Assembly: GCF_003316695.1 (NCBI RefSeq)
Contig: NZ_PDKB01000013.1
Coordinates: 1 to 64,000, forward strand
DNA length: 64,000 nucleotides
From: Aliarcobacter vitoriensis
Lineage (GTDB): Bacteria; Campylobacterota; Campylobacteria; Campylobacterales; Arcobacteraceae
Direction of reading: 5' to 3'
Shown here one piece after another: positions 1 through 64,000 of this stretch. Position 1 is the stretch's first letter. Every line of letters starts with the position of its first letter. The notes beneath the pieces are model-generated. The model saw nothing but the letters and a program-made list of their open reading frames with translations. It had not been told where the DNA came from and did not search any database. Both the position numbers and the translations under genes were made by a program.

Positions 1-1060
1 CTTTTGTTGGTACTACTACATTACCATCTTTATCTACTAATTTTACTACATACTCACCTGTCTGACTCTCCCACAACTCTTTTGTTCCATCGATTACAAC
101 ATACACTGTATCTTCTGGTCCATATCCCCCATCTTCACCACCTGGATTTAAAGGGTTTGAGTTATCTAAAATCTCAGTATCAACATTTGTTTTTTGTCCG
201 TTCACATCTCCAGTTCTCATATCAAAATGAGTTGAGTTATTTCCTGTGATTTCTAAATTGTAAATTTCACCATTATCTGCTAAATAGTCATCTATTGTTT
301 TTATATTAAATGTAGTTTCGCTTGTTCCTGCTTTGATTACTACTTCTATAACATTGTTGTGATTATATTCTGTGTCGCCATCTTGAGTTGTTTTATTTGT
401 ATATCTTACATAGATTATTGTATCTTGAGTTGCTATTACTGGATTTCCTGCAGCATCTACTAGTTTTACTACATATTGAGCTTCATCACCTTCATTTACA
501 ACTTGTAAACCTTCAATTATAGTATAAACAGGAGGTAAGATAAAAATATTATCTGGTGCATCTTCGATTTGATTATCAGTTCCACCAGTCCATGAAGCTT
601 GTCTTAAATCACTAATAACATCTGTTGCATCTCCATCTCTAGCATTAAATTTAGATCTTAATGCTCCACCATCTTGACTCTCTTCATTTCCAGCATTTGT
701 AGCTTGTTCAGTTACATCACCAGCTGCTGTTTCCATATTGTCTATATTTTCTTGTGCTTGATTCCATGCACTTAAAGTTTCATCAACAGCTTTTTTATCA
801 AAAGCTACCTCTTCATTTCCAAAAGATATAGTAGTTAAAGATGAATCAAATAATTGATTATTATCTTGATTTACAACTACTACATCATTTCCTGATAGTT
901 CAATAGCGATATTTGCCAAAGATGAGTTTGTTTTATCTCCAAAAACTACATCATTTTTTGCTATTGTATCGCCGATTTTAAGTTCTCTTACAGCTCCTGA
1001 AGAATCTTTTACATAAAATTTACCTTCAGTGATTGATTTTACTGTTCCTAATACTTCCAT
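1..1060 (-). CDS. LapA-type retained surface adhesin, N-terminal part (runs off left edge)
   Basis: No stop codon is met before the window edge, so about 353 N-terminal residues are visible. The ATG at 1060 has a GGAGATAC ribosome site a few bases upstream. Residues 1-100 look like the retention module of LapA-type adhesins: short beta-rich sequence with MEVLGTVKSITEGKFYVKD at the start and 'VFGDKTNSSLANIAIELSG' further on. Residues 111-114 read TAAG (719-730), the type of di-alanine site cut by LapG periplasmic proteases, followed by a polar linker. From about residue 170, Ig-like adhesin repeats begin (VNEGDEAQYVVKLVDAAGNP, then a second start ESQTGEYVVKLVDKDGN). Family knowledge: such proteins are secreted by type I systems, held in the outer membrane by the retention module and released by LapG under c-di-GMP/LapD control. 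The transporter and LapD/LapG are not in this window. The family is well supported; total length is unknown. Confidence 0.85.
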   Translation of the reverse strand, partial: MEVLGTVKSITEGKFYVKDSSGAVRELKIGDTIAKNDVVFGDKTNSSLANIAIELSGNDVVVVNQDNNQLFDSSLTTISFGNEEVAFDKKAVDETLSAWNQAQENIDNMETAAGDVTEQATNAGNEESQDGGALRSKFNARDGDATDVISDLRQASWTGGTDNQIEDAPDNIFILPPVYTIIEGLQVVNEGDEAQYVVKLVDAAGNPVIATQDTIIYVRYTNKTTQDGDTEYNHNNVIEVVIKAGTSETTFNIKTIDDYLADNGEIYNLEITGNNSTHFDMRTGDVNGQKTNVDTEILDNSNPLNPGGEDGGYGPEDTVYVVIDGTKELWESQTGEYVVKLVDKDGNVVVPTK

Positions 1061-1115
1061 TAGTATCTCCTTAAAAATAATATACTAGATTATATCAAAT
1101 TATTTAAGGAGTATG

Positions 1116-1135
1116 TATCACCCGCTGGGGTGATA
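1116..1135. other. Perfect 8-bp inverted repeat in the adhesin promoter region
   Basis: TATCACCC and GGGTGATA flank a 4-base loop. It is the most GC-rich patch in the gap between the adhesin start (1060) and the 3' end of the MFS gene. There is no T-run on either side, so it could be a weak terminator of the MFS transcript or an operator for the adhesin; the sequence does not decide. Confidence 0.4.
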
Positions 1136-1152
1136 TTTGGCATAAATTTAGC

Positions 1153-2334
1153 TTAAATTTTATCTTTTTCAAACTTTTTAGCTATAAAAAGTAAAAATAC
1201 TCCACCTAAAACTATCAAAGCTGTTAAATATAGAGCATAATCATAGTTGCCATATTTTTCAATAAAATATATACTATAAAGAGGTGCAATAACTTGTCCT
1301 ATACCATAAGAAGTTGTTAAAGCACCCATCAAAACAACTGGATTTCCATTTGAAAGTTGCCCACCCAAATTCATAAAAAGTGCAACAAGCCCTATAAAAG
1401 TTCCACCATACAAAACTCCACTTAATAAATTTAAATAAATATTTGTTGTAAAAGCAGGGATTAAAATCCCTATAGCTTGTAAAAGTAGGGCTATGATGAT
1501 GATATTTACACTTCCGTATTTATGAGCCAATCTCATCCAAATAATACAAGATGGTATTCCAGCAATACCAACTAAAGTCCAAGTTAAACTTCCATATCCT
1601 TCAAGTCCAGCAAGATTGTTTATAATATCTGGTAAAAATGTAGCTTGAACAACAAATCCTACACCTTCAGCAAAATATGCCATAATCAAAAGGATAACAA
1701 ATGGAGTAAAAATAGTAAAATCAAATTTCTGTTTTATTTGAGCTTGTTTTACTTCTTTATCAAAAGATAAAATATACATTGCATAAAAAGATAAAACAAT
1801 AGCATATATACAAAGTACACTCCAAGCATCTTCCCAAGTATAACCCAAACTTAAAACATATCTTGCTATTAAATCCGTAGTCAAAATAGAAAATCCTATT
1901 CCACTAAAATGTATTCCCATCGCTTTTGTTTTACTCTCAATTTTGAGTTTTTGCATAACAATTGCAGATCCTACAACCAAACACATAGCTCCTGCAAATC
2001 CACCTAAAACTCTTCCTATCATCCAAAGTGTATCATCTTTGCTATAGGCTAAAATAAAAGTTGTAACAATAGCTAAAACTATTCCAAATCTATAAAAATA
2101 TACTTTGATATTTATGTTTTTTATAAATACCGAAAATATAGAACCAGCTAAATATCCAGCAAAATTTAGTGAAGCTAAAATCCCTACAAATTTAATAGTT
2201 AAATAATCATCTATCATAGGAGGAATAAGCCCAGTAAAAGCAAATCGTGCAACGCCTATACCTATGATAATTGAAAATATACCAGCAATTAAAATCGCTA
2301 AATTATCATTTCTATCGAATAATCTTCTTAACAT
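1153..2334 (-). CDS. YbfB/YjiJ-family MFS transporter
   Basis: The protein has 393 residues and about 12 hydrophobic segments, so it is an inner-membrane carrier. The N-terminal GIGVARFAFTGLIPPM in helix 1 and GRVLGGFAGAMCLVVGSA in helix 4 are typical of the YbfB/YjiJ branch of the major facilitator superfamily. Substrate unknown; relatives are annotated only as MFS proteins. It is divergent from the LysR-type regulator starting at 2429, with about 95 bp between them, and such divergent pairs often mean that the regulator controls the transporter (inference). Length is normal and there is no sign of damage. Confidence 0.8.
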   Translation of the reverse strand: MLRRLFDRNDNLAILIAGIFSIIIGIGVARFAFTGLIPPMIDDYLTIKFVGILASLNFAGYLAGSIFSVFIKNINIKVYFYRFGIVLAIVTTFILAYSKDDTLWMIGRVLGGFAGAMCLVVGSAIVMQKLKIESKTKAMGIHFSGIGFSILTTDLIARYVLSLGYTWEDAWSVLCIYAIVLSFYAMYILSFDKEVKQAQIKQKFDFTIFTPFVILLIMAYFAEGVGFVVQATFLPDIINNLAGLEGYGSLTWTLVGIAGIPSCIIWMRLAHKYGSVNIIIIALLLQAIGILIPAFTTNIYLNLLSGVLYGGTFIGLVALFMNLGGQLSNGNPVVLMGALTTSYGIGQVIAPLYSIYFIEKYGNYDYALYLTALIVLGGVFLLFIAKKFEKDKI

Positions 2335-2428
2335 AAAACTCTCTTCCTTAGTTTTTTTGCTATCATATCACTAAAGATTATTCTGTGTCAAATAATCAAT
2401 AATGATAGGTGATATAAGGAAAAATGAT

Positions 2429-3256
2429 ATGGATTTAAATTTATTAAAAGTTTTTGTAAGTGTTGCAAATAATAAAAGTATATCGATAGCTTCAAATGAG
2501 TTAAAATGTAGCCAATCAAATGTAACTTCAAGAATAAAACAGCTTGAAAAAATATTGAATTTAGAGCTTTTTCATAGAGTTCCAAAGGGTGTTATATTAA
2601 CTTCAAGTGGAGAGAAGTTTTATCCACAAGCTTTAGAAATAATACATAAAATGGAAAGTTCTATTGCTAGTTTAACTGAAGATAAGAATATAAGTTCTCT
2701 AAAAATTGGTTCAACTGATTGCAATGCAGTTGTACGAATTTCACCATTTTTAATACAACTTCACAAAGATTTTCCAAAAATGCAACTAGAACTTTTTACA
2801 GGGACTACAAAAGATATTATACAATTAATCTTAGATTATAAAGTTGATATAGCTTTTATAAGTGGTGAGCCAAGAAATGATAGTTTAATGATATTAAAAA
2901 AATTTGAAGAAGAGATAGCGATTTTAGAACCTTATGAAGAAAATACTCCAAATGTAGCTTTGAGTTTTAAAGATGGTTGCGTTTATGATGAATTTTTAAA
3001 AGATTATTACAAACAAAAAAATATATATGTTGAAAAAACTTTACCTTTTGGAAACTTAGAAACTATTCTTTCGTGTATAAAAGTGGGTATGGGTAAATCT
3101 TTACTTCCAACAAGCATAGTTAAAAAAATGGGTTATGATAAAGATATCAAAATCACAGTTTTACCAAAAGATGAAGCTAATATTCCAACTTGCTTGATTT
3201 GTAGAAAAGATAATATTCCAAAAATTAGTGATTATCTTAAGAAGATGGAGTTATAA
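2429..3256 (+). CDS. LysR-family transcriptional regulator
   Basis: The protein has 275 residues. The N-terminal winged HTH (about residues 1-60) starts MDLNLLKVFVSVANNKSIS and contains the usual ALS-type helix SNVTSRIKQLEKILNLELF. The rest resembles the periplasmic-binding-protein-like effector domain (about 85-275). I chose the ATG at 2429 because AAGGA sits 8 bases before it and the family begins this way; an upstream in-frame ATG at 2402 would add nine atypical residues. It is divergent from the MFS gene. Its last 20 bases overlap the convergent HxlR gene, so the two 3' ends share sequence. Effector unknown. Confidence 0.85.
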   Translation: MDLNLLKVFVSVANNKSISIASNELKCSQSNVTSRIKQLEKILNLELFHRVPKGVILTSSGEKFYPQALEIIHKMESSIASLTEDKNISSLKIGSTDCNAVVRISPFLIQLHKDFPKMQLELFTGTTKDIIQLILDYKVDIAFISGEPRNDSLMILKKFEEEIAILEPYEENTPNVALSFKDGCVYDEFLKDYYKQKNIYVEKTLPFGNLETILSCIKVGMGKSLLPTSIVKKMGYDKDIKITVLPKDEANIPTCLICRKDNIPKISDYLKKMEL

Positions 3257-3593
3257 AACAATTTAATTCTGGTCTCTCTTTTGAACCCCAACTACACATA
3301 GCATCTAAAATCGGAATAAGAGATTTTCCCGTACTTGTTAAACTATATTCAACTTTTGGTGGAATCATTGCATACTCTTTTCTTGTAATTAGCTTGTCAG
3401 CTTCCAACTCTTTTAATTGAGAACTTAACATTTTATAAGTAATACTTCCTATTTTTCTTTGTAATTCATTGTATCTTATAACTTTATGTTCAGATAATAA
3501 GTACAAAATCATCATTTTCCATTTTCCAGAAATCAAAGATAAAGTATAACCAAATGGTGTTTCAGCTATATTTTTTAGTTCATCTTTCTTCAT
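3237..3593 (-). CDS. HxlR-family winged-helix regulator
   Basis: The protein has 118 residues, the usual size for a one-domain HxlR protein. It carries the hallmark SGKWKMMILYLLSEH, the recognition region KIGSITYKMLSSQLKELE and the wing VEYSLTSTGKSLIPIL. Family members respond to reactive electrophiles, quinones or redox stress. It is divergent from a flavodoxin-fold NAD(P)H oxidoreductase at 3694 with about 100 bp between, a classic HxlR target arrangement (inference). Its 3' end overlaps the LysR gene by 20 bp in convergent orientation. Confidence 0.85.
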   Translation of the reverse strand: MKKDELKNIAETPFGYTLSLISGKWKMMILYLLSEHKVIRYNELQRKIGSITYKMLSSQLKELEADKLITRKEYAMIPPKVEYSLTSTGKSLIPILDAMCSWGSKERPELNCFITPSS

Positions 3594-3693
3594 TTACACT
3601 TTCCTTTTTGATAGTATATTACATAAAAGTACATATTTACATTTTTTTATATTTACATATAATAACATCAAATTTTATAAAAAAGGTTTTAAT

Positions 3694-4224
3694 ATGAAAA
3701 AAATATTAATCAATTTGGTACATCCAAATTTCGAAAAATCGCTTGTAAACAAAAGACTAATTAATGCTATTAGTAGTTTTGAAAATGTAACTATAAATAA
3801 TTTATATGATAAATATAAAGAGTTTAAAATAGATGCTAAAGAGGAGCAAAAACTACTATTAGACAACGATGTTATAGTTTTTCAATTTCCAATGTATTGG
3901 TTTAGTTCACCTTCTATTTTAAAAGAATGGTTTGATATTGTACTTGAAAACAATTTTGCTTATGGAGGTCAATATAAATTACAAAATAAACCTTTTGCTG
4001 TTGCTGTTAGTTGTGGAGGATATGAAGAAGCATTTTGTGAAACAGGAAAAGACAAAAAAACAGTTGAAGAGTTTCTTTCTCCATTGTATGGTACTGCAAA
4101 TTATATAAAAATGGATTACAAAAAACCTTTTATAACTTACGGAACAGAATTTGAATTGAGTGAAGATACATTAAATAAATTTGAACAAGATTATATAAAA
4201 TATATTAAAGAGTTATCTAAATAA
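3694..4224 (+). CDS. NAD(P)H-dependent flavodoxin-fold oxidoreductase (quinone reductase type)
   Basis: The protein has 176 residues. N-terminal MKKILINLVHPNFEKS is the first beta strand and phosphate loop of the flavodoxin-like fold. FQFPMYWFSSPSILKEWFD is the FMN/quinone-site motif shared by MdaB, KefF and YwrO relatives. It is expected to be a cytosolic FMN enzyme reducing quinones or similar electrophiles with NAD(P)H. It is divergent from the HxlR regulator, which fits detoxification control. Substrate not determined. Confidence 0.8.
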   Translation: MKKILINLVHPNFEKSLVNKRLINAISSFENVTINNLYDKYKEFKIDAKEEQKLLLDNDVIVFQFPMYWFSSPSILKEWFDIVLENNFAYGGQYKLQNKPFAVAVSCGGYEEAFCETGKDKKTVEEFLSPLYGTANYIKMDYKKPFITYGTEFELSEDTLNKFEQDYIKYIKELSK

Positions 4225-4234
4225 AATAAATAAG

Positions 4235-4286
4235 CGATGAGTATAGTGTTTTAGTTAAACTTCTGCTGTAAGTTTTATACTCATCG
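4235..4286. terminator. Inverted repeat between convergent genes, probable bidirectional terminator
   Basis: CGATGAGTATA (4235-4245) is matched perfectly by TATACTCATCG (4276-4286) across a 30-base loop. T-rich sequence follows on the + side. It lies between the convergent oxidoreductase and MgtC/DUF4010 genes, where a shared terminator is expected. The long loop makes it weaker than a textbook terminator. Confidence 0.5.
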
Positions 4287-4394
4287 GTTATCAATCTTTT
4301 TGTTTTTGGATTATATCAGAAATTTTTTTTATTTGTATATATTTTAAAATCTTATAATTAAAAATTTGCAAAAGTGTAACCATATGTAGGAAAA

Positions 4395-5645
4395 TTATAA
4401 AATTAATCCTACAAATATTGTTAAAATACCTAAAACCATCAAACAAATTGAACTTGAAATTGCTTTTTTCTTTCCAAACCAAACTGTATATAAAGCTTTT
4501 AGTATATTATTACTTCCAGCTGCAATAATAATCGCTCCTGCAATTGATAAACTATCAATATTATAATTTCCAGCTAATAAAGATAAGATAAACGGGTCAA
4601 TATCTGTAAATCCAATTATTACAGAAAGGATATTAAGCCCTGTTGTGCCAAAACTATTAACTACTAAATTTGTAATAAGCATAGTTACAACAAACAAAAA
4701 GGCAAACACGAATGCTGTTCCTAATTCTAATGGGTTTGAATCTTCTAATTCAACATTATTATTTACTATATGAGAACCTTTTTTATAATAAATACCAACT
4801 ATTATCAAACAAATGACTGCAAATGCTAAAAATGGATAAACAATGATTTTAAAAACTTCCATATTAAAAATAGCTGCAATTACACTAAGTCTAAGATACA
4901 TCATTAAAGTTGCACTTACAATAGAAGCTGTAAACATATCACTATTCTCTAAGCATTGGGATTTTTTTGATAAAACAACTGTTGTTGCTGTTGAAGAGTA
5001 AAGTCCTCCTAAAACTCCTGTTAAAAGTAAACCTTTTGAAGGAAAGATATATTTTTGAACTATATAACTTAAATAAGAAATAGTTGATATAACTACAACT
5101 GTAAGCCAAATTTTATATAAAGAAATTCCAAGATAAGGTATAGTTGTATCTTTTGGTAGAAGTGGCAAAACAACTGCTGAAAGAAGAATAATCTTTCCTA
5201 AAGTCTCTAATTCATAGATATTTATTTTTAGTTTGAAATTGAACAATTTATTTTTTGCATTTAGTAAAAATATTATTACAACAAAAATTAAAGAGGCCAA
5301 CCAAAATGGAAAAATATCTATTAATGCACCAAAACTATACACAATCATAGCAACTAGAAAAAGTACTATACTATTTTTCTTATTTTCAAGAAGTTTATTA
5401 AAAAGCATAGTATAAAGAACTGTTATTGATATAAATCCTGCTATAAAGATAAAGAAATTATTTGGTTCTAATATATAAAATATAAATCCTACAATACCTA
5501 TAAAAGTGTAAGTTCTGGTTGTTCCAAAAAATGTTTTTATATCATTTTCATGAAATTTTAATCCATAAGCTTTAACTTCTAACCCTATTAAGAAACTAAA
5601 AACTGTTGTTGCAATAAAATCTATTAAAAGTTCATTGATTTCCAT
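4395..5645 (-). CDS. MgtC/SapB-family membrane protein with DUF4010 tail
   Basis: The protein has 416 residues and is almost wholly hydrophobic. Residues 1-130 match the MgtC/SapB-type module (LLIDFIATTVFSFLIGLEVK), and the C-terminal half matches DUF4010 (about 200-410, with GVLGGLYSSTATTVVLSKK and IIIAAGSNNILKALYTVWF). It is an inner-membrane protein; function is not established, although MgtC relatives are linked to Mg2+ limitation and virulence. I took the ATG at 5645 (MEINELLID) because AAGGATA precedes it with good spacing; an upstream ATG at 5681 would overlap promoter sequence. It diverges from modE, and the shared intergenic region holds an FNR-type box and a ModE-like repeat. Confidence 0.8.
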   Translation of the reverse strand: MEINELLIDFIATTVFSFLIGLEVKAYGLKFHENDIKTFFGTTRTYTFIGIVGFIFYILEPNNFFIFIAGFISITVLYTMLFNKLLENKKNSIVLFLVAMIVYSFGALIDIFPFWLASLIFVVIIFLLNAKNKLFNFKLKINIYELETLGKIILLSAVVLPLLPKDTTIPYLGISLYKIWLTVVVISTISYLSYIVQKYIFPSKGLLLTGVLGGLYSSTATTVVLSKKSQCLENSDMFTASIVSATLMMYLRLSVIAAIFNMEVFKIIVYPFLAFAVICLIIVGIYYKKGSHIVNNNVELEDSNPLELGTAFVFAFLFVVTMLITNLVVNSFGTTGLNILSVIIGFTDIDPFILSLLAGNYNIDSLSIAGAIIIAAGSNNILKALYTVWFGKKKAISSSICLMVLGILTIFVGLIL

Positions 5646-5688
5646 TTGTGTATCCTTAGTAAAACTTTGTAATAATATCATATTAATA

Positions 5689-5702
5689 TTGATTTAAATC
5701 AA
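5689..5702. promoter_or_regulatory. Perfect FNR/CRP-type box
   Basis: TTGAT-TTAA-ATCAA matches the consensus TTGAT-N4-ATCAA exactly and is the core of a 20-bp perfect palindrome (5686-5705). It lies 43 bp upstream of the MgtC/DUF4010 start and about 70 bp upstream of modE, so an oxygen- or redox-responsive Crp/FNR regulator could act on either gene. Confidence 0.6.
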
Positions 5703-5711
5703 TATCTATTA

Positions 5712-5749
5712 AGATATATAACGATACTATTTGATTACGTTATATATCT
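5712..5749. promoter_or_regulatory. ModE-like operator (12-bp inverted repeat)
   Basis: AGATATATAACG (5712-5723) and CGTTATATATCT (5738-5749) form a perfect inverted repeat with a 14-base spacer, ending 24 bp before the modE ATG. The arms contain the TATATAACG/CGTTATATA half-site known from E. coli ModE operators, but here the half-sites point outward rather than inward. Autoregulation of the mod operon by ModE is the natural reading. Confidence 0.6.
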
Positions 5750-5773
5750 AAAAATATAACAAAAGGATTATAT

Positions 5774-6556
5774 ATGCCAATATCATCTAATTTGACTTTA
5801 GAAATTTTGAATCAACCTTTTTTGCTTGAGAAAAGAATTGAACTACTTATGGCTATAAAAAAAACTGGTTCGATAAACAAAGCAGCAAAAGAAGTCCCAA
5901 TGAGCTATAAAGGTGCATGGGAAGCTATTGAAGCTATGAATAATTTATCAACAACTCCAATAGTTTTAAGAGAAACTGGTGGAGCAGGTGGCGGTGGAAC
6001 AACTCTTACAAAGTATGGAGAAAATCTTTTAGAAACATATTTTTTACTAAAAGAAGAGCAAAAAAAGTTTATTGAAAATCTAAATCGAATTACTGATTTG
6101 AATACTGGAACTTTAAAAACTATAAGGAGGTTATCTATGCAAATTAGTGCAAGAAATCAAATAATCGGTGTAGTTGATAATATCTCACTAGGAGCTGTAA
6201 ACGCTGAAATAGAGATAAAACTAAAAAGTGGAAATTCAATAGTTTCTATTATAACTAATAGTTCTGTTGAGAATTTAGGGCTTAAAATTGGAGATGAAGT
6301 TGTTGCTGTTATAAAATCTAGCAATGTTTTATTATCAACTCAAAGTGATTTAAAACTTAGTGCAAGAAACTCTTTAAAAGGTACTATTGAAGATATAAGT
6401 TTAGGTGCAGTAAATGCAGAAGTTGTAATAAATATTGGAGATAAAGATAAAATCGTTGCAGTTGTAACTGCAAATTCTATTTCTAATATGAAATTAGAAG
6501 TTGGAACAAAAGTTGATGCTATTATAAAAGCATCTGATATTATGATAGGAAGATAG
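5774..6556 (+). CDS. modE: Molybdate-responsive transcriptional regulator ModE
   Basis: The protein has 260 residues in the classic ModE layout. Residues about 10-115 are a LysR-like winged HTH (KKTGSINKAAKEVPMSYKGAW, then RETGGAGGGGTTLTKYG). Two Mop/TOBE repeats follow (about 125-190 and 195-260), each with an SLGAVNAE motif, which bind molybdate or tungstate at the dimer interface. It heads modE-modA-TOBE-modB-modC, with modA starting 8 bp downstream. An inverted repeat resembling its own operator lies just upstream. Confidence 0.93.
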   Translation: MPISSNLTLEILNQPFLLEKRIELLMAIKKTGSINKAAKEVPMSYKGAWEAIEAMNNLSTTPIVLRETGGAGGGGTTLTKYGENLLETYFLLKEEQKKFIENLNRITDLNTGTLKTIRRLSMQISARNQIIGVVDNISLGAVNAEIEIKLKSGNSIVSIITNSSVENLGLKIGDEVVAVIKSSNVLLSTQSDLKLSARNSLKGTIEDISLGAVNAEVVINIGDKDKIVAVVTANSISNMKLEVGTKVDAIIKASDIMIGR

Positions 6557-6564
6557 GAGATAGT

Positions 6565-7311
6565 ATGAAAAAAATTATTTTAGGTTTAGCACTATTATGT
6601 TCATCTGTTTTTGCTGGAACAGTTAATATCGCAGTTGCTGCAAATGTTAGCTATGCAATAAATGACTTAATCGCAGAATTTAATAAAACAAATCCAAACA
6701 CAAAAATAGAAGTAGTTCTTGGAGCTAGTGGAAAATTTACAGCACAAATTCAAAATGGTGCACCATTTGATATTTTTATGAGTGCGGATATGAAATTCCC
6801 TGAAACTTTATATAAAGAGAATTTAACTGCAACGCAACCTGTTGTTTATGCGCAAGGAAGTTTAGCAATATTAAGTGCAAAACCACTAGATTTCTCAAAA
6901 GGAATAGAAATAGTTTCAAATGACACTATCAAAAGAGTTGCGATTGCAAATCCGAAAACTGCTCCTTATGGAACTGCTGCTATTGAAGCACTAAAAAATG
7001 CAAATATTTTAGAGAAAAATGAAAGTAAATTTGTTTATGCTGAATCAATTTCTCAAGCTGTAACATATGCTTTAACTGCTGCTGATGTTGGATTTATCGC
7101 TAAATCTTTATTGTATGAAGATAAGATGGCTCAATATAAAGAAAATATAAATTGGATAAGTGTTGATCCAAAACTATATACTCCAATTGACCAAGGAATA
7201 GTAGTTTTAAATAAAGCAAAAGATAATGCTGAAGCTAAAGCTTTTTATGATTTTATCTTAAGTTCTAAAGCAAAAGAGATATTTAAAAACTTTGGTTATT
7301 TGGTAAAATAA
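6565..7311 (+). CDS. modA: Molybdate ABC transporter periplasmic binding protein ModA
   Basis: The protein has 248 residues with a Sec signal peptide (MKKIILGLALLCSSVFAG, cleavage near residue 17-18). The mature start VNIAVAANVSYAINDLIAEF and the GASGKFTAQIQNGAPFDIFMSAD stretch carry the Ser/Ala oxyanion-binding positions of ModA proteins. It delivers molybdate or tungstate to ModBC. It lies 8 bp after modE and 2 bp before the TOBE gene, so co-transcription is nearly certain. Confidence 0.93.
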   Translation: MKKIILGLALLCSSVFAGTVNIAVAANVSYAINDLIAEFNKTNPNTKIEVVLGASGKFTAQIQNGAPFDIFMSADMKFPETLYKENLTATQPVVYAQGSLAILSAKPLDFSKGIEIVSNDTIKRVAIANPKTAPYGTAAIEALKNANILEKNESKFVYAESISQAVTYALTAADVGFIAKSLLYEDKMAQYKENINWISVDPKLYTPIDQGIVVLNKAKDNAEAKAFYDFILSSKAKEIFKNFGYLVK

Positions 7312-7313
7312 AT

Positions 7314-7706
7314 ATGATTGCAAGAGTAAAAAATATTCAAAACAAAGACAATTTGAATATAGTAGAATTTGATTTTCATAATAACACTTTTAAAATGATG
7401 AGTTTGGATTTAAGTAGCAATTTACAAATAGGCTCAAAAGTTGAACTTCTTGTAAAACCTACAAATATTGTAATATCTAAAAATCATATAGAAGATATTA
7501 GTCTATCAAATCAAGCTCTTGCAAAAATTACTGATATACAAAATGGTGAACTTCTAAGTAGTATCAAACTAAAAATAGAAAATACTATTTTAGAAAGCAT
7601 TATCACAAAAGAGTCTTCAATAAGACTAAACTTAAAAAAAGATGATGAGATAAATATCTTGATAAAAGCTAGTGATTTATCTATAAATAGGGTTTTAAAT
7701 GATTGA
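7314..7706 (+). CDS. Two-TOBE-domain molybdate-binding protein in the mod operon
   Basis: The protein has 130 residues and appears to be two tandem TOBE/Mop-like repeats (about 1-62 and 65-128; [14 protein letters not shown] and [14 protein letters not shown] end them) with no HTH or transmembrane segment. The repeats are more divergent than those of ModE and lack the clear SLGAVNAE motif. It may buffer molybdate in the cytosol like Mop proteins or act with ModBC. It overlaps the start of modB by 8 bp, indicating translational coupling. Confidence 0.75.
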
Positions 7707-23419: not shown

Positions 23420-25773
<2,354 letters not shown>

Positions 25774-59948: not shown

Positions 59949-60407
59949 ATGAAAGTTTCAAAAAAAACAGATTATGCATTGAGAGCTTTATTTGCAATAG
60001 CAGAAGCAGACAATCTTATTTCAATTAGAGAATTGTCAGAATTAGTTGATGTTCCAAGAAGATTTTTAGAAAATATTATGCTTGAAATGAATAGAGCAGG
60101 TTGGGTAAAAAGTATTCCAGGACGTTATGGTGGATATGTTTTGGCAAAGGGTGCAGATGAGATAACGATGGGAGAAGTAATTCGATATTTTGAAGGTATG
60201 ATTGCTATGATATCTTGTGTTTCAGTTTCTAATTATGAACCATGTAGTCAAGAGGGCAAATGCCATTTTAGAAGAGTATTTTTAAATATAAGAAATTTAA
60301 CAGCACATATTTTGGACAAAACAACAATAGCGTCTTGTTTGGCTCAAGCACCTGTTACAAAAGAAGATATTTTAAAAGAAGAGTTTGTTGGTGGATTGGG
60401 AATTTGA
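59949..60407 (+). CDS. Rrf2-family regulator with three cysteines (sulfur/Fe-S sensing candidate)
   Basis: The protein has 152 residues. N-terminal winged HTH (MKVSKKTDYALRALFAIAEA, VDVPRRFLENIMLEM, KSIPGRYGGYVLAKGAD). Cys90, Cys99 and Cys105 with His106 resemble the cluster-binding set of IscR/NsrR but with spacing C-x8-C-x5-C. Rrf2 proteins such as CymR and IscR control sulfur and Fe-S metabolism. Its own promoter and those of the cystine-type and SsuA-like genes share an operator, so it probably represses all three. Confidence 0.87.
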   Translation: MKVSKKTDYALRALFAIAEADNLISIRELSELVDVPRRFLENIMLEMNRAGWVKSIPGRYGGYVLAKGADEITMGEVIRYFEGMIAMISCVSVSNYEPCSQEGKCHFRRVFLNIRNLTAHILDKTTIASCLAQAPVTKEDILKEEFVGGLGI

Positions 60408-60449: not shown

Positions 60450-60501
60450 TTGACAAAAAATGTTTTTATTAGTATTATTTCACCAATCTAGTAGATGATA
60501 G
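60450..60501 (+). promoter_or_regulatory. Promoter and Rrf2-type operator of the cystine-type transporter
   Basis: TTGACA (60450-60455), 17-bp spacer, TATTAT (60473-60478), then CAATCTAGTAGATGATAG (60484-60501), overlapping the expected transcription start. Nearly identical over more than 50 bases to the promoter at 63546. Confidence 0.75.
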
Positions 60502-60533: not shown

Positions 60534-61367
60534 ATGAAACAAATTTTTAAAAAATTACTTATTGCTCTAGCAATAGTTCCAGCTTTAGCATTAACTGTAA
60601 GTGCAAAAGAAAAAAATTCTATTGATATTATCAAAGAAAAAGGTAAAGTAAGAATTGGAGTATTTAGTGATAAAGCACCATTTGGTTATCTTGATAGCAA
60701 TGGAAAACACCAAGGATTTGATATTGTTATTGCAAAAAGATTGACAAAAGAACTTTTAGGTGATGAAAATAAAGTTGAATTTATCAATCTTGAAGCAGCA
60801 AATAGAGTTGAGTATTTAGTTACAAATAAAGTAGATATTGTATTAGCAAACTTTACTGTAACACCTGAAAGAGCAAAAAAAGTTGATTTTGCAAATCCAT
60901 ATATGAAAGTTGCTATTGGTGTTGCATCGCCAGAAAAAAGCCCAATAAATAAAGTTGAAGATTTAAAAGGTAAGAAGCTTATAGTTACTAAAGGTACAAC
61001 GGCTGATGTTTACTTTACAAAAAATCACTCTGATATTGCAACATTGAGTTTTGATCATAATTCTGAATCATTTGCTGCTTTAAAAGATGGAAGAGCAGAT
61101 GCATTTACGCATGATAATACACTTCTTTTTGCATGGACAAAACAAAATCCAGGATTTGTTGTAGGAATTGATGCTTTAGGACCACAAGATACTATCGCAC
61201 CAGCAGTTAAAAAAGGAAATACAGTTTTATTAAACTGGCTTAATGAAACTTTAGCAAAACTTGGTGAAGAGAAATTTATAGAAAATGCTTATAATGAAAC
61301 TTTAAAACCTATATATGGTGATTCTGTAAATATTGAATCAGTTATTATAGAGGGTGGAAAAATATAA
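60534..61367 (+). CDS. Cysteine/cystine-type ABC transporter binding protein (CjaA-like)
   Basis: The protein has 277 residues. Signal peptide (MKQIFKKLLIALAIVPALAL). Amino-acid-binding family 3: GYLDSNGKHQGFDIVIAKRL, NRVEYLVTNKVDIVLANFTV then TPERAKKVDFANPY. It resembles Campylobacter CjaA, which binds cysteine. The Rrf2-type operator upstream supports a sulfur amino acid. First of a four-gene importer operon. Confidence 0.83.
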   Translation: MKQIFKKLLIALAIVPALALTVSAKEKNSIDIIKEKGKVRIGVFSDKAPFGYLDSNGKHQGFDIVIAKRLTKELLGDENKVEFINLEAANRVEYLVTNKVDIVLANFTVTPERAKKVDFANPYMKVAIGVASPEKSPINKVEDLKGKKLIVTKGTTADVYFTKNHSDIATLSFDHNSESFAALKDGRADAFTHDNTLLFAWTKQNPGFVVGIDALGPQDTIAPAVKKGNTVLLNWLNETLAKLGEEKFIENAYNETLKPIYGDSVNIESVIIEGGKI

Positions 61368-61372
61368 TTTAG

Positions 61373-62032
61373 ATGGATTTAGATTTTATTATAGAGGTTA
61401 GCCCTTTATTCCAACAAGCTTTATTGGTAACAATAAAGCTCTCTTTTATTGGTATATTTTTCTCATTAATTATAGGCTTAGTTTGTAATTTAATATTGGC
61501 TAGAGAGAATGTTTTTTTAAACTCCTTAGTCAATGCTTATATTGAAATATCAAGAAATACTCCTTTACTTATTCAGCTATTCTTTTTATATTATGGTTTA
61601 CCAAAATTTGGTATAAAAATTGATGAGCAAGTTTGTGCAATTATTGGGCTTAGCTTTTTGGGTGGAAGTTATATGAGTGAAGCTTTAAGAGCAGGAATAG
61701 AAGCTGTACATAAAAACCAAATAGAAGCAGGATTAAGTCTTGGTATGAATAAGGCTCAACTTTTTAGATTTGTGATTTTACCACAAGCTTTGAGTATATC
61801 TATCCCATTACTGACTGCAAATGCAATATTTTTAGTAAAAGAGACTTCTGTTGTCGGAATAATAGCTGTTAAAGAGCTAGTAAGTTTGAGTAAAACACTA
61901 ATTGGTGTTTATTATAATACCTATGAAACAATGTTTATGCTAGTTCTGTTTTATTTGATTATTCTTTTACCACTTTCATTTATTTTATCTTATATAGAAA
62001 GGAGAGTGCGATATGCAGAACATGGGAATTGA
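61373..62032 (+). CDS. Amino-acid ABC transporter permease 1
   Basis: The protein has 219 residues with five membrane helices and the HisM-type motif EALRAGIEAVHKNQIEAGLS then ILPQALSISIPLL. Polar amino-acid permease family. It overlaps the next permease by 20 bp. Confidence 0.87.
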   Translation: MDLDFIIEVSPLFQQALLVTIKLSFIGIFFSLIIGLVCNLILARENVFLNSLVNAYIEISRNTPLLIQLFFLYYGLPKFGIKIDEQVCAIIGLSFLGGSYMSEALRAGIEAVHKNQIEAGLSLGMNKAQLFRFVILPQALSISIPLLTANAIFLVKETSVVGIIAVKELVSLSKTLIGVYYNTYETMFMLVLFYLIILLPLSFILSYIERRVRYAEHGN

Positions 62033-62690
62033 ACTAATATTTCAAGGAAATAATCTTTTGCGAATATTAGAAGGTACTTTAAATACTATGTATATTGCAT
62101 TTATTTCTATATTTTTAAGTTTAATATTTGGAGTTATTTTTGGGATAATTTATACTTCAAAAAATAAAATTATAAGATTTTTTTGTAGATTTTATTTAGA
62201 AGTTTTTAGAATTATTCCTATTCTTGTACTGCTTTTTTTGTTTTACTTTGTAGTTCCAAGTCTTTTTGATATTGATATAAGTGGTGAATTTGTAGCTATT
62301 TATGTTTTTGTTTTATGGGGAATTGCTGAAATTGGAGATATAACAAGAGGAGCTATGGAATCAATACCAAAACATAATAGTGATGTAGCTTTAGCTTTGG
62401 GATTTAATAAAGTACAGTTATATATTTTTGTTTTAATTCCTTTATCATTTAAAAGAGTTCTTCCTGGAGTTATAAATTTAACAACAAGAATGATAAAAAC
62501 TACATCATTAGTTATAATGATAGGTGTTGTTGATGTAGTAAAAGTTGGACAACAAATAATAGAAAGTAATATTTTAAAAGTGCCTGATGCTGCTTTTTGG
62601 ATATATGGATTTATATTTGTAATATATTTTATTATCTGTTATCCTTTATCAAAAGTTGCAAAAGTTTTAGAAAATAGATGGAATAAGTAG
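62013..62690 (+). CDS. Amino-acid ABC transporter permease 2
   Basis: The protein has 225 residues. ITRGAMESIPKHNSDVALAL and LIPLSFKRVLPGVINLTTRM are HisQ-type permease motifs. The ATG at 62013 has AAAGGAGAG with good spacing inside the previous gene; an in-frame ATG at 62022 is less likely. It forms a heterodimer with permease 1. Confidence 0.87.
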   Translation: MQNMGIELIFQGNNLLRILEGTLNTMYIAFISIFLSLIFGVIFGIIYTSKNKIIRFFCRFYLEVFRIIPILVLLFLFYFVVPSLFDIDISGEFVAIYVFVLWGIAEIGDITRGAMESIPKHNSDVALALGFNKVQLYIFVLIPLSFKRVLPGVINLTTRMIKTTSLVIMIGVVDVVKVGQQIIESNILKVPDAAFWIYGFIFVIYFIICYPLSKVAKVLENRWNK

Positions 62691-62696
62691 GAAATT

Positions 62697-63437
62697 ATGG
62701 ATAAATTGATAGAAATAAAAAACCTTGTAAAAAAATATGCAGATAAAACAGTTATAAATGGAATAGATTTATCTATACAAAAAGGTGAAGTCGTTGTTTT
62801 ACTTGGACCTTCTGGATGTGGGAAAAGTACACTTTTAAGAACTATAAATGGCCTTGAAAATATACAAGGTGGAGAGATACTTTTCCATGGTAAAAATATC
62901 CATGATAAAAACTCTAATTGGATAGAAATAAGACAAAAAATAGGAATGGTTTTTCAAAATTATGAACTGTTTCCTCATTTAAATGTAATAGATAATATTT
63001 TATTGGCACCTTTAAAAGTTCAAAAAAGAGCTAAAGAGGAAGTTATGCTTCAAGCAGAAGAACTTTTAAAAAAAGTTGGTCTTGAAGATAGAAAATTTGC
63101 ATATCCAAGAGAGTTATCAGGTGGTCAGAAACAAAGAATTGCAATAGTAAGAGCTTTGTGTATGAATCCTGAAGTTATGCTTTTTGATGAAGTTACAGCT
63201 TCGCTTGATCCTGAAATGGTAAGAGAAGTTTTAGATGTAATTTTAAATTTGGCAAAATCAGGAATGACTATGTTTATAGTAACTCATGAGATGGGATTTG
63301 CAAAATCTGTTGCAAATAGAATAGTATTTTTGGATAGTGGAAAAATTTGCGAGGAATCTGAACCAAAAGAGTTTTTTTCAAACCCAAAAACACAAAGAGC
63401 AAGAGAGTTTTTAAATATCTTTCAATTTGAAGATTAA
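62697..63437 (+). CDS. Amino-acid ABC transporter ATP-binding protein (GlnQ type)
   Basis: The protein has 246 residues. Walker A GPSGCGKSTLLRTIN, LSGGQKQRIAIVRAL, VMLFDEVTASLDPEMV and VTHEMGFAKSVANRI match the polar amino-acid ATPase group. It energises the two permeases. The operon ends at an imperfect terminator. Confidence 0.9.
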   Translation: MDKLIEIKNLVKKYADKTVINGIDLSIQKGEVVVLLGPSGCGKSTLLRTINGLENIQGGEILFHGKNIHDKNSNWIEIRQKIGMVFQNYELFPHLNVIDNILLAPLKVQKRAKEEVMLQAEELLKKVGLEDRKFAYPRELSGGQKQRIAIVRALCMNPEVMLFDEVTASLDPEMVREVLDVILNLAKSGMTMFIVTHEMGFAKSVANRIVFLDSGKICEESEPKEFFSNPKTQRAREFLNIFQFED

Positions 63438-63545: not shown

Positions 63546-63597
63546 TTGACAAAATATATTTTTATTAGTATTATTTCACCAATTTAGTAGATGATAA
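63546..63597 (+). promoter_or_regulatory. Promoter and Rrf2-type operator of the SsuA-like gene
   Basis: TTGACA (63546-63551), 17-bp spacer, TATTAT (63569-63574), then CAATTTAGTAGATGATAA (63580-63597). It is a close copy of the cystine-operon promoter. The expected transcript has a leader of about 175 nt before the gene. Confidence 0.75.
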
Positions 63598-63635
63598 TAT
63601 AACTTAATAAATCATCTAAATCAGAAAGGATAAAA

Positions 63636-63683
63636 ATGATGTGCGATATGTGTAGATATTCTAAAAATGTAGAATTAATTTAA
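63636..63683 (+). CDS. Short Cys-containing leader ORF
   Basis: Fifteen codons, MMCDMCRYSKNVELI, with AGAAAGGA 7 bases before the first ATG. Cys at codons 3 and 6 in the leader of a sulfur-uptake gene is reminiscent of attenuator peptides. Translation is inferred; the ORF is short. Confidence 0.5.
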   Translation: MMCDMCRYSKNVELI

Positions 63684-63728
63684 TGAAAGATTTGGTGAGA
63701 TTTTTTTAAATCTTTAACTATCACACAT
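63648..63728 (+). promoter_or_regulatory. Foldable mRNA leader, candidate attenuator
   Basis: ATGTGTAGATA (63648-63658), which contains the second Cys codon, can pair with TATCACACAT (63719-63728) with one bulged A. Inside lies the hairpin AAAGATTT (63686-63693)/AAATCTTT (63708-63715), with a T7 run in its loop. The ribosome site of the next gene is 19 bases after the outer helix. Confidence 0.4.
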
Positions 63729-63757
63729 TTAGTGTATATTATATTTAGGAAAAGTTT

Positions 63758-64000
63758 ATGACAAAAATAGTTAAAAAGATATTTGCAGTATTAGCAATTA
63801 TTCCAGTATTAGGTTTTGGAGCTTCAAAAGCTGAACAATTAAGAATAGGGTATCAAAAGTCAGATCCTGGGTTTGTATTGATAAAAGATTCTGGTGCTTT
63901 AGAAAAGAGATTAGAGTCAATTGGAGTAAAAGTATCTTGGATAGAATTTCCAGCAGGGCCTCAACTACTTGAAGGTTTAAATGTTGGAAGTATTGATTTA
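63758..64000 (+). CDS. SsuA-type aliphatic sulfonate binding protein, N-terminal part (runs off right edge)
   Basis: 81 residues are visible. Signal peptide (MTKIVKKIFAVLAIIPVLGFG), then LRIGYQKSDPGFVLIKDSGA, VKVSWIEFPAGPQLLEGLNV and the GSID start of the next strand, the SsuA/NMT1-like pattern. AGGA lies 7 bases before the ATG. It probably binds sulfonates for an SsuABC importer beyond the edge. The Rrf2-type operator fits a sulfur role. Confidence 0.82.
   Translation, partial: MTKIVKKIFAVLAIIPVLGFGASKAEQLRIGYQKSDPGFVLIKDSGALEKRLESIGVKVSWIEFPAGPQLLEGLNVGSIDL

Follow-up and report, generated by a model that had tools for sequence, protein, structure and literature searches.

Does the transcript that leads into the sulfonate uptake gene ssuA begin with a short open reading frame (ORF) whose translation adjusts sulfur uptake, as an earlier note on this DNA proposed for cysteine scarcity? 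The window, i.e. the whole stretch of DNA analysed, comprises positions 1–64000 of an 85,993-base contig from the genus Aliarcobacter. The features that frame the question are as follows.

59949..60407, + strand: Rrf2-family transcriptional regulator gene, found with the leader by co-occurrence
60450..60500, + strand: twin promoter (60450–60478) and operator-like repeat (60479–60500), before an amino-acid ABC transporter
60534–63437: the amino-acid ABC transporter, between the Rrf2 gene and the ssuA leader
63546..63574, + strand: sigma-70 promoter TTGACA-17-TATTAT, score 11/12
63575..63596, + strand: operator-like repeat TTCACCAATTTAGTAGATGATA, directly 3′ of the −10 box
63625..63630, + strand: leader ribosome site AAAGGA
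63636..63683, + strand: leader ORF MMCDMCRYSKNVELI, 15 codons with Cys at codons 3 and 6; codons 1–6 conserved, the tail not
63747..63753, + strand: ribosome site of ssuA, AGGAAAA, assigned from sequence
63758..64000, + strand: ssuA, aliphatic sulfonate ABC substrate-binding protein (SBP), which runs on to contig position 64702

The earlier note had placed a promoter at 63546 ahead of a leader of about 175 nt, and this reading is borne out, as a start of transcription near 63580 would give a leader of about 176 nt. The 15-codon ORF, its two Cys codons and its good ribosome site likewise stand as described. The twin promoter has an equal score (11/12) and, as had been noted, lacks the leader: its transcript has neither the ORF nor the conserved element that lies downstream of it before ssuA.

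Leader and downstream element form the head of a sulfur gene cluster, which continues past the window end with more sulfonate genes and with genes for an NMT1-like SBP, a sulfate-binding protein (sbp) and a CysM-like protein. The cluster contains a tandem duplication of ssuA–ssuD (positions 600–7400 of locus L006), the copies lying ∼4528 bases apart at ∼78–84% identity. The first ssuD copy is found in two frames (L006 1715–2392 and 2461–2868, contig 64715–65868), and the repeat spacing from the first to the second ssuD copy changes from 4527 to 4528 inside the split gene, which makes a frameshift of one base, or else a sequencing error, the likely cause.

Relatives keep the first codons of the leader ORF

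Leaders were sought by DNA search in 31 genomes of the genus, with a sequence-only model of the downstream element in 104 genomes of the family, and by a pattern search in 398 genomes of the order, which added one genome (G221). In all, 31 distinct leaders are counted. They stand before genes for sulfate or sulfonate uptake in 24 of the 31 genus genomes, in a genome of another genus (G060) and in G221, which belongs to another family and carries, in series, rrf2, a core sequence of the downstream element, the leader MMCDMCNNKLKK, the element and sbp. One collection scan with the core pattern matched Arcobacter vandammei, A. cryaerophilus gv. crypticus and two Aliarcobacter MAGs. Loci L031–L036 (E 3e-4 to 0.005) were inspected, appeared unrelated and were dropped, and a match in G027 (E 7.6e-4) was counted as chance. 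Of the seven pattern matches in other families, five lie inside longer frames (L097, L098, L099, L101, L103), L100 is a six-codon stretch overlapping a gene on the opposite strand and was rejected as a leader, and L102 (G221) is the sole true copy. The 31st leader (L104, MMCDMCKINKYKRK) was missed by the search expression and stands outside the 30-leader counts of the pairing, swap, codon and accessibility tests.

Among the 30 tabulated leaders, which come from related genomes and are not independent counts, Met2 and Met5 are invariant (30/30 each), Cys3 is present in 27, Cys6 in 26, both Cys in 23 and at least one Cys codon in all 30, and AAGG of the ribosome site is found in 30/30. The Cys codons, whose conservation across relatives the earlier note had proposed as a check, do therefore recur. 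Past codon 7 the sequence drifts and the length of the ORF is not kept: the distance from the ORF to GGTGA, a motif at the start of the downstream hairpin, leaves remainders of 2, 0 and 1 on division by three in 16, 10 and 4 leaders, and stop codons fall anywhere from −17 to +16 nt relative to the start of GGTGA. Such a free tail and unkept length indicate an ORF that acts in cis, as a leader peptide, rather than through a working protein. A metal- or thiol-binding micropeptide could be read from the CxxC of the MMCDMC start, which occurs in 23 of the 30 leaders; one Cys is lost in the other seven, and with tail and length unconserved we regard a functional product as very improbable. As in known attenuators, the regulatory codons are kept while the remaining peptide drifts, and at the level of sequence a short ORF with a ribosome site stands before an operon that serves the pathway of the amino acid it encodes, the link to the pathway being drawn from gene names.

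Because it is conserved in this way, the leader ORF lies far beyond chance. A chance ORF and a chance helix in an AT-rich leader, kept by close relatedness only, would be compatible with modest folding scores and with an outer helix that does not covary (see below). The start codons of the leader and the element, however, are near-identical where Sbp is only 73–78% identical to that of the window, and the tail of the leader diverges there; this explanation is disfavoured and hardly credible.

The codons chosen at the ORF start are unusual as well. In the background set (the window and the neighbouring 20 kb) Cys accounts for 132 of 22,622 codons, with TGT used 117 times versus 15 for TGC, and GAT 1139 times versus 92 for GAC. 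Among leaders having those residues, 21 of 27 use TGC at codon 3 and 17 of 25 use GAC at codon 4. In rrf2 (13 sequences from 28 loci, the seed motif being strict) and sbp (25 sequences), 80 columns of two-fold codons are conserved, and only one of them is C-ending to at least 65%. Selection of the rare TGC GAC for best pairing with the core was considered and rejected, since in many genomes TGT GAT would give the better match. As the Met codons 2 and 5 are kept more strictly than the Cys codons, Cys may not be the sole signal.

Conserved hairpins flank the ORF

Three further features lie on either side of the ORF.

63588..63618, + strand: 5′ hairpin, TAGATGAT (63588–63595) with ATCATCTA (63611–63618), directly 5′ of the leader ribosome site, with A-U/G-C covariation
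63694..63714, + strand: GGTGAG and hairpin GAGATTT-TTTT-AAATCTT, the hairpin being kept in 34/34 copies with varying loops
63720..63741, + strand: core ATCACACATTTAGTGTATATTA, a partial dyad ending 16 nt before ssuA

The 5′ hairpin has the consensus TAGRTGAT with ATCAYCTA in promoter-type leaders, and its 3′ arm is absent from the leader-less twin transcript. At the variable pair, 19 promoter-type leaders carry A-T in four cases, G-C in seven and G-T in two, with shorter or shifted matches in the remaining six, and own pairs exceed swapped pairs (p = 0.004). Against shuffled sequences, the 5′ part of promoter-type copies folds weakly better, with a mean z of −1.76.

The downstream element is a conserved stretch of ∼50 nt that consists of the AU-rich hairpin and a 22-nt core just 5′ of the uptake gene. 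Its hairpin loops include UUU, UUUU, UUUUU, AAA and GAAA among the 34 copies. An intrinsic terminator was looked for in the leader and none was found, so that transcription attenuation of the trp type is not indicated. GGTGAG with the following seven T as a terminator was rejected, as the copies at L009, L006:11289, L042 and L041 keep the stem without a T-run (of at least five). Strong conservation, a fixed hairpin, several copies per genome and, in some genomes, a second core before the leader might also suggest a riboswitch with a metabolite as ligand, or a site recognised by an RNA-binding protein, the leader ORF aiding its folding. The element is very small and AU-rich, the leader gave no match to Rfam covariance models up to E 1, some copies have no hairpin and the core recurs alone, all of which makes such a role improbable.

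Pairing between the leader start and the core

The second Cys codon had been proposed to lie in a segment that can pair over 10 bp with 63719–63728 around a smaller hairpin. The pairing itself does form in the window, with AUGUGU(A)GAUA at 63648–63658, one A being bulged, and it encloses the inner hairpin; as a conserved switch at codons 5–6 it is not supported. It reaches a probability of at least 0.5 in only 8 of the 30 leaders, its register shifts, and own cores pair no better than swapped cores (p = 0.16), with competing RNA pairings present in the leaders. In four leaders with an altered codon 6 the core carries no matching change in this register; for two of these (L028 and L029) a shifted register allows pairing.

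In the minimum-energy fold of the window's leader, 10 additional pairs (four of them G-U) join codons 1–4 (63636–63645) to 63733–63742 around the inner hairpin. Folding exceeds that of shuffled sequences modestly for the window (z of −1.77 over its whole leader, −2.06 when folding begins at the leader ATG) and weakly for its relatives (mean z of −0.9 for the full leader and −1.6 for the downstream element). The register of the helix between leader start and core varies by species, and about half of the folds are without it; in 19 of the 30 leaders, nevertheless, no more than 2% of 66 real gene starts pair with the core as well as the leader start does.

We modelled the cost of opening the ribosome site of the uptake gene with ribosomes at different positions on the leader. 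The mean cost is 4.66 kcal/mol with no ribosome, 4.30 with a ribosome at Cys3, 4.01 at Cys6 and 4.65 at the stop codon. The predicted difference between Cys6 and stop is small (p = 0.013; 16 up, 8 down), and a ribosome at Cys3 makes no significant difference from none (p = 0.44). In the ssuA leader of the window itself, the corresponding values of 6.9, 6.0, 6.0 and 5.7 do not give the predicted re-closing at the stop codon, and no clear masking of the ribosome site of the uptake gene emerges from the accessibility model.

The core recurs without the leader ORF

Across the 30 leaders the core, ATCAYACATTTARTGTRTATTA, ends 16–24 nt 5′ of the start codon that follows. In the window's genome, copies without a leader ORF precede ssuA2 and the gene for the NMT1-like SBP, with a weaker one at cysT, and a copy is also found before sbp. 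Recurrence without the ORF implies that conservation of the core may in part belong to the DNA, as operator or promoter. In one genome (G005, loci L024 and L040) a full leader ORF and element (L024) apparently occupy the ssuA2 site, where other genomes have the core alone, and the leader of the second rrf2 copy of that genome has neither a core nor a promoter repeat of its own.

These copies bear most directly on the main alternative explanation, in which a dimeric regulator (Rrf2 or other) binds the core as a DNA operator, alone or combined with a promoter; the core would then start each sulfur uptake unit, the leader ORF being accessory or an independent small transcript upstream of it. The core does lie before uptake genes that have no leader ORF, and it lies directly 3′ of terminators, both before cysT and, in other genomes, 5′ of the leader itself just past the rrf2 terminator. 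The half-sites AYACA and TGTRT change independently of each other, and C/A non-pairs between them are frequent, as suits a DNA site bound by a dimer, and upstream copies fuse a left half like that of the promoter operator (TCACC) to the right half of the core. The element and the Rrf2 gene also occur in the same genomes, which may reflect simple linkage, i.e. inheritance of one cluster. Left unexplained are the conserved ORF codons, the hairpin kept in 34/34 copies and the covarying 5′ hairpin. As a promoter the core offers no −10 register common to all copies (e.g. TGTGTATTA, TGTATACAT, TGTGTTTTA), and the copies read share one orientation, with the TTA of the core ∼28–37 nt 5′ of the start codon, an arrangement that an RNA element also fits. 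We hold an operator as the principal function to be possible but on balance unlikely; attenuator and core as operator or promoter may both be true together.

The promoter repeat and the Rrf2-family regulator

With up to three mismatches, the promoter repeat TTCACCARTYTARTAGRTGATA has only four copies in the genome, before the amino-acid transporter, ssuA, sbp and cysT, and none in a reversed control. The copy at 63575–63596 is a putative binding site of the Rrf2 protein encoded at 59949. The best-scoring NCBIfam equivalog for this protein is CymR, at 69.9 bits against a curated cut-off of 195, far too low for it to be assigned to the equivalog. Its Cys residues are positioned as in Fe-S Rrf2 proteins. 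The gene is present in 26 of the 104 family genomes, comprising the 25 with strong copies of the element and G018 (54% complete), and in 14 of the 398 genomes of the order sample, G221 among them; copies of the leader always co-occur with it. Control of the promoter at 63546 probably lies with a CymR-like Rrf2 protein, separately from the proposed attenuator.

A similar promoter and operator-like repeat are found upstream of cysT in 12 genomes (L171, L164–L170, L172–L174, L178), that of genome G000 (L171) lying on the minus strand of contig C14 at about 24826–24972. Right after promoter and repeat, these loci have a hairpin with compensatory changes and a run of at least six T, that is, an intrinsic terminator ∼45 nt past the expected start; cysT comes next, after a core-like site. 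With a terminator so close behind the promoter, these loci are candidates for an attenuator or for a tiny RNA gene.

A cis-acting attenuator as the favoured reading

We favour, at slightly better than even chances, a transcript from 63546 whose beginning serves as a leader-peptide attenuator, acting in cis, of sulfur uptake, a reading that rests on comparison of sequences. Attenuation is preferred because only the codons at the ORF start are kept, because hairpins flank the ORF and because the downstream genes supply sulfur. A ribosome would translate the leader MMCDMC... and, with charged Cys-tRNA (perhaps Met-tRNA) scarce, would stall within codons 2–6. The stall would keep the leader start off the core 5′ of ssuA, the GGTGAG hairpin could form and the uptake gene would be on. 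With sulfur amino acids plentiful, the ribosome would reach the stop codon adjoining GGTGAG, the leader start would re-pair with the core and expression would fall. The sequences themselves establish the conservation, the covarying 5′ hairpin, the retained downstream hairpin and the genes around the leader; we infer translation, stalling, the sign of the response and a translational readout, the sign (stall leading to expression) being assumed by analogy with known attenuators. The specific readout through pairing of leader start and core is a tentative, model-based proposal that takes up the smaller part of our confidence in the attenuator, and other readouts, i.e. pausing, RNA decay or help past a roadblock, take up the remainder.

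The proposal that stalling at Cys codons alters expression is consistent with the kept ORF, Cys codons and ribosome site, with the sulfate and sulfonate genes and with hairpins on both sides; the Cys6 helix in the register proposed is not supported, and Cys as sole signal is doubtful. The strict Met codons, taken with an MMYQMR leader of C. jejuni described below, suggest that Met is perhaps sensed too. More doubtful is a lineage-specific device reading Met and Cys tRNA charging, in which the ribosome would decide, via an RNA hairpin, whether polymerase passes an Rrf2-bound DNA operator at the leader end.

Comparison with known systems

The Cys-codon leader ORFs of Actinobacteria are reportedly leaderless, as the title of a 2020 paper by Canestrari et al. 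has it. The regulator at 59949 resembles CymR/IscR-type Rrf2 regulators in that an Rrf2 protein is encoded next to sulfur genes and a repeat marks the promoters it putatively targets, and differs in scoring below the CymR equivalog cut-off.

To the Cys attenuation that the earlier note knew from mycobacteria can be added predictions across Actinobacteria: in the parts of PMC1262725 drawn on here, Cys-codon leader ORFs precede cys operons of Mycobacterium and Propionibacterium and cbs of Bifidobacterium, and Cys leaders without terminators are predicted. The Aliarcobacter leader shares with these the short Cys-codon ORF before sulfur assimilation genes and the lack of a conserved terminator. 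The actinobacterial leaders, as presented there (PMC1262725), have Cys runs near the stop codon, whereas the Aliarcobacter leader, in another phylum, places Cys3 and Cys6 amid Met, comes with a ribosome site and is flanked by conserved hairpins. The earlier note knew of no such case here, and the listings and abstract openings of the published literature searched gave no Cys-codon leader for Campylobacterota. The parts are known, but Met and Cys codons, flanking hairpins and a repeated core were not found described as one layout. If true, the attenuator would be the first Cys-codon leader for Campylobacterota, a group with food-borne species, as far as the searched literature shows. The system would unite a translated leader, an Rrf2 regulator and sulfate/sulfonate uptake, and offers a clean test case for terminator-free attenuation in very AU-rich leaders.

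Closer in phylogeny is the C. jejuni small ORF MMYQMR (CJsORF19), which according to the portion of PMC11955535 used here was detected by ribosome profiling before the D-methionine SBP gene Cj0772c. It shares with the Aliarcobacter leaders the M-M-x-x-M start, the phylum and the position before a sulfur amino-acid uptake gene, and differs in having no Cys codon (PMC11955535). We found a locus matching that of CJsORF19 in G351 (L181 1481–1519), with an MMYQMR leader before an SBP gene; unlike the Aliarcobacter leaders, it has a long hairpin (CTGACTATCA/TGATAGTCAG) directly after the stop codon and no core within the stretch read. Codons 3–4 of L181 (UAUCAG) could pair with the 3′ arm of that hairpin.

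Leader peptides LeuL, TrpL and MetL are likewise reported in C. jejuni, in the sections of PMC3847290 used here. Their leader RNAs are reported to end just past the stop codon in the style of transcription attenuation (PMC3847290), whereas the Aliarcobacter leader shows no such terminator. They are nonetheless leader peptides of the same phylum, and the rare Leu codons that LeuL uses as regulatory codons (PMC3847290) have a counterpart in the rare TGC at codon 3 of the Aliarcobacter leader.
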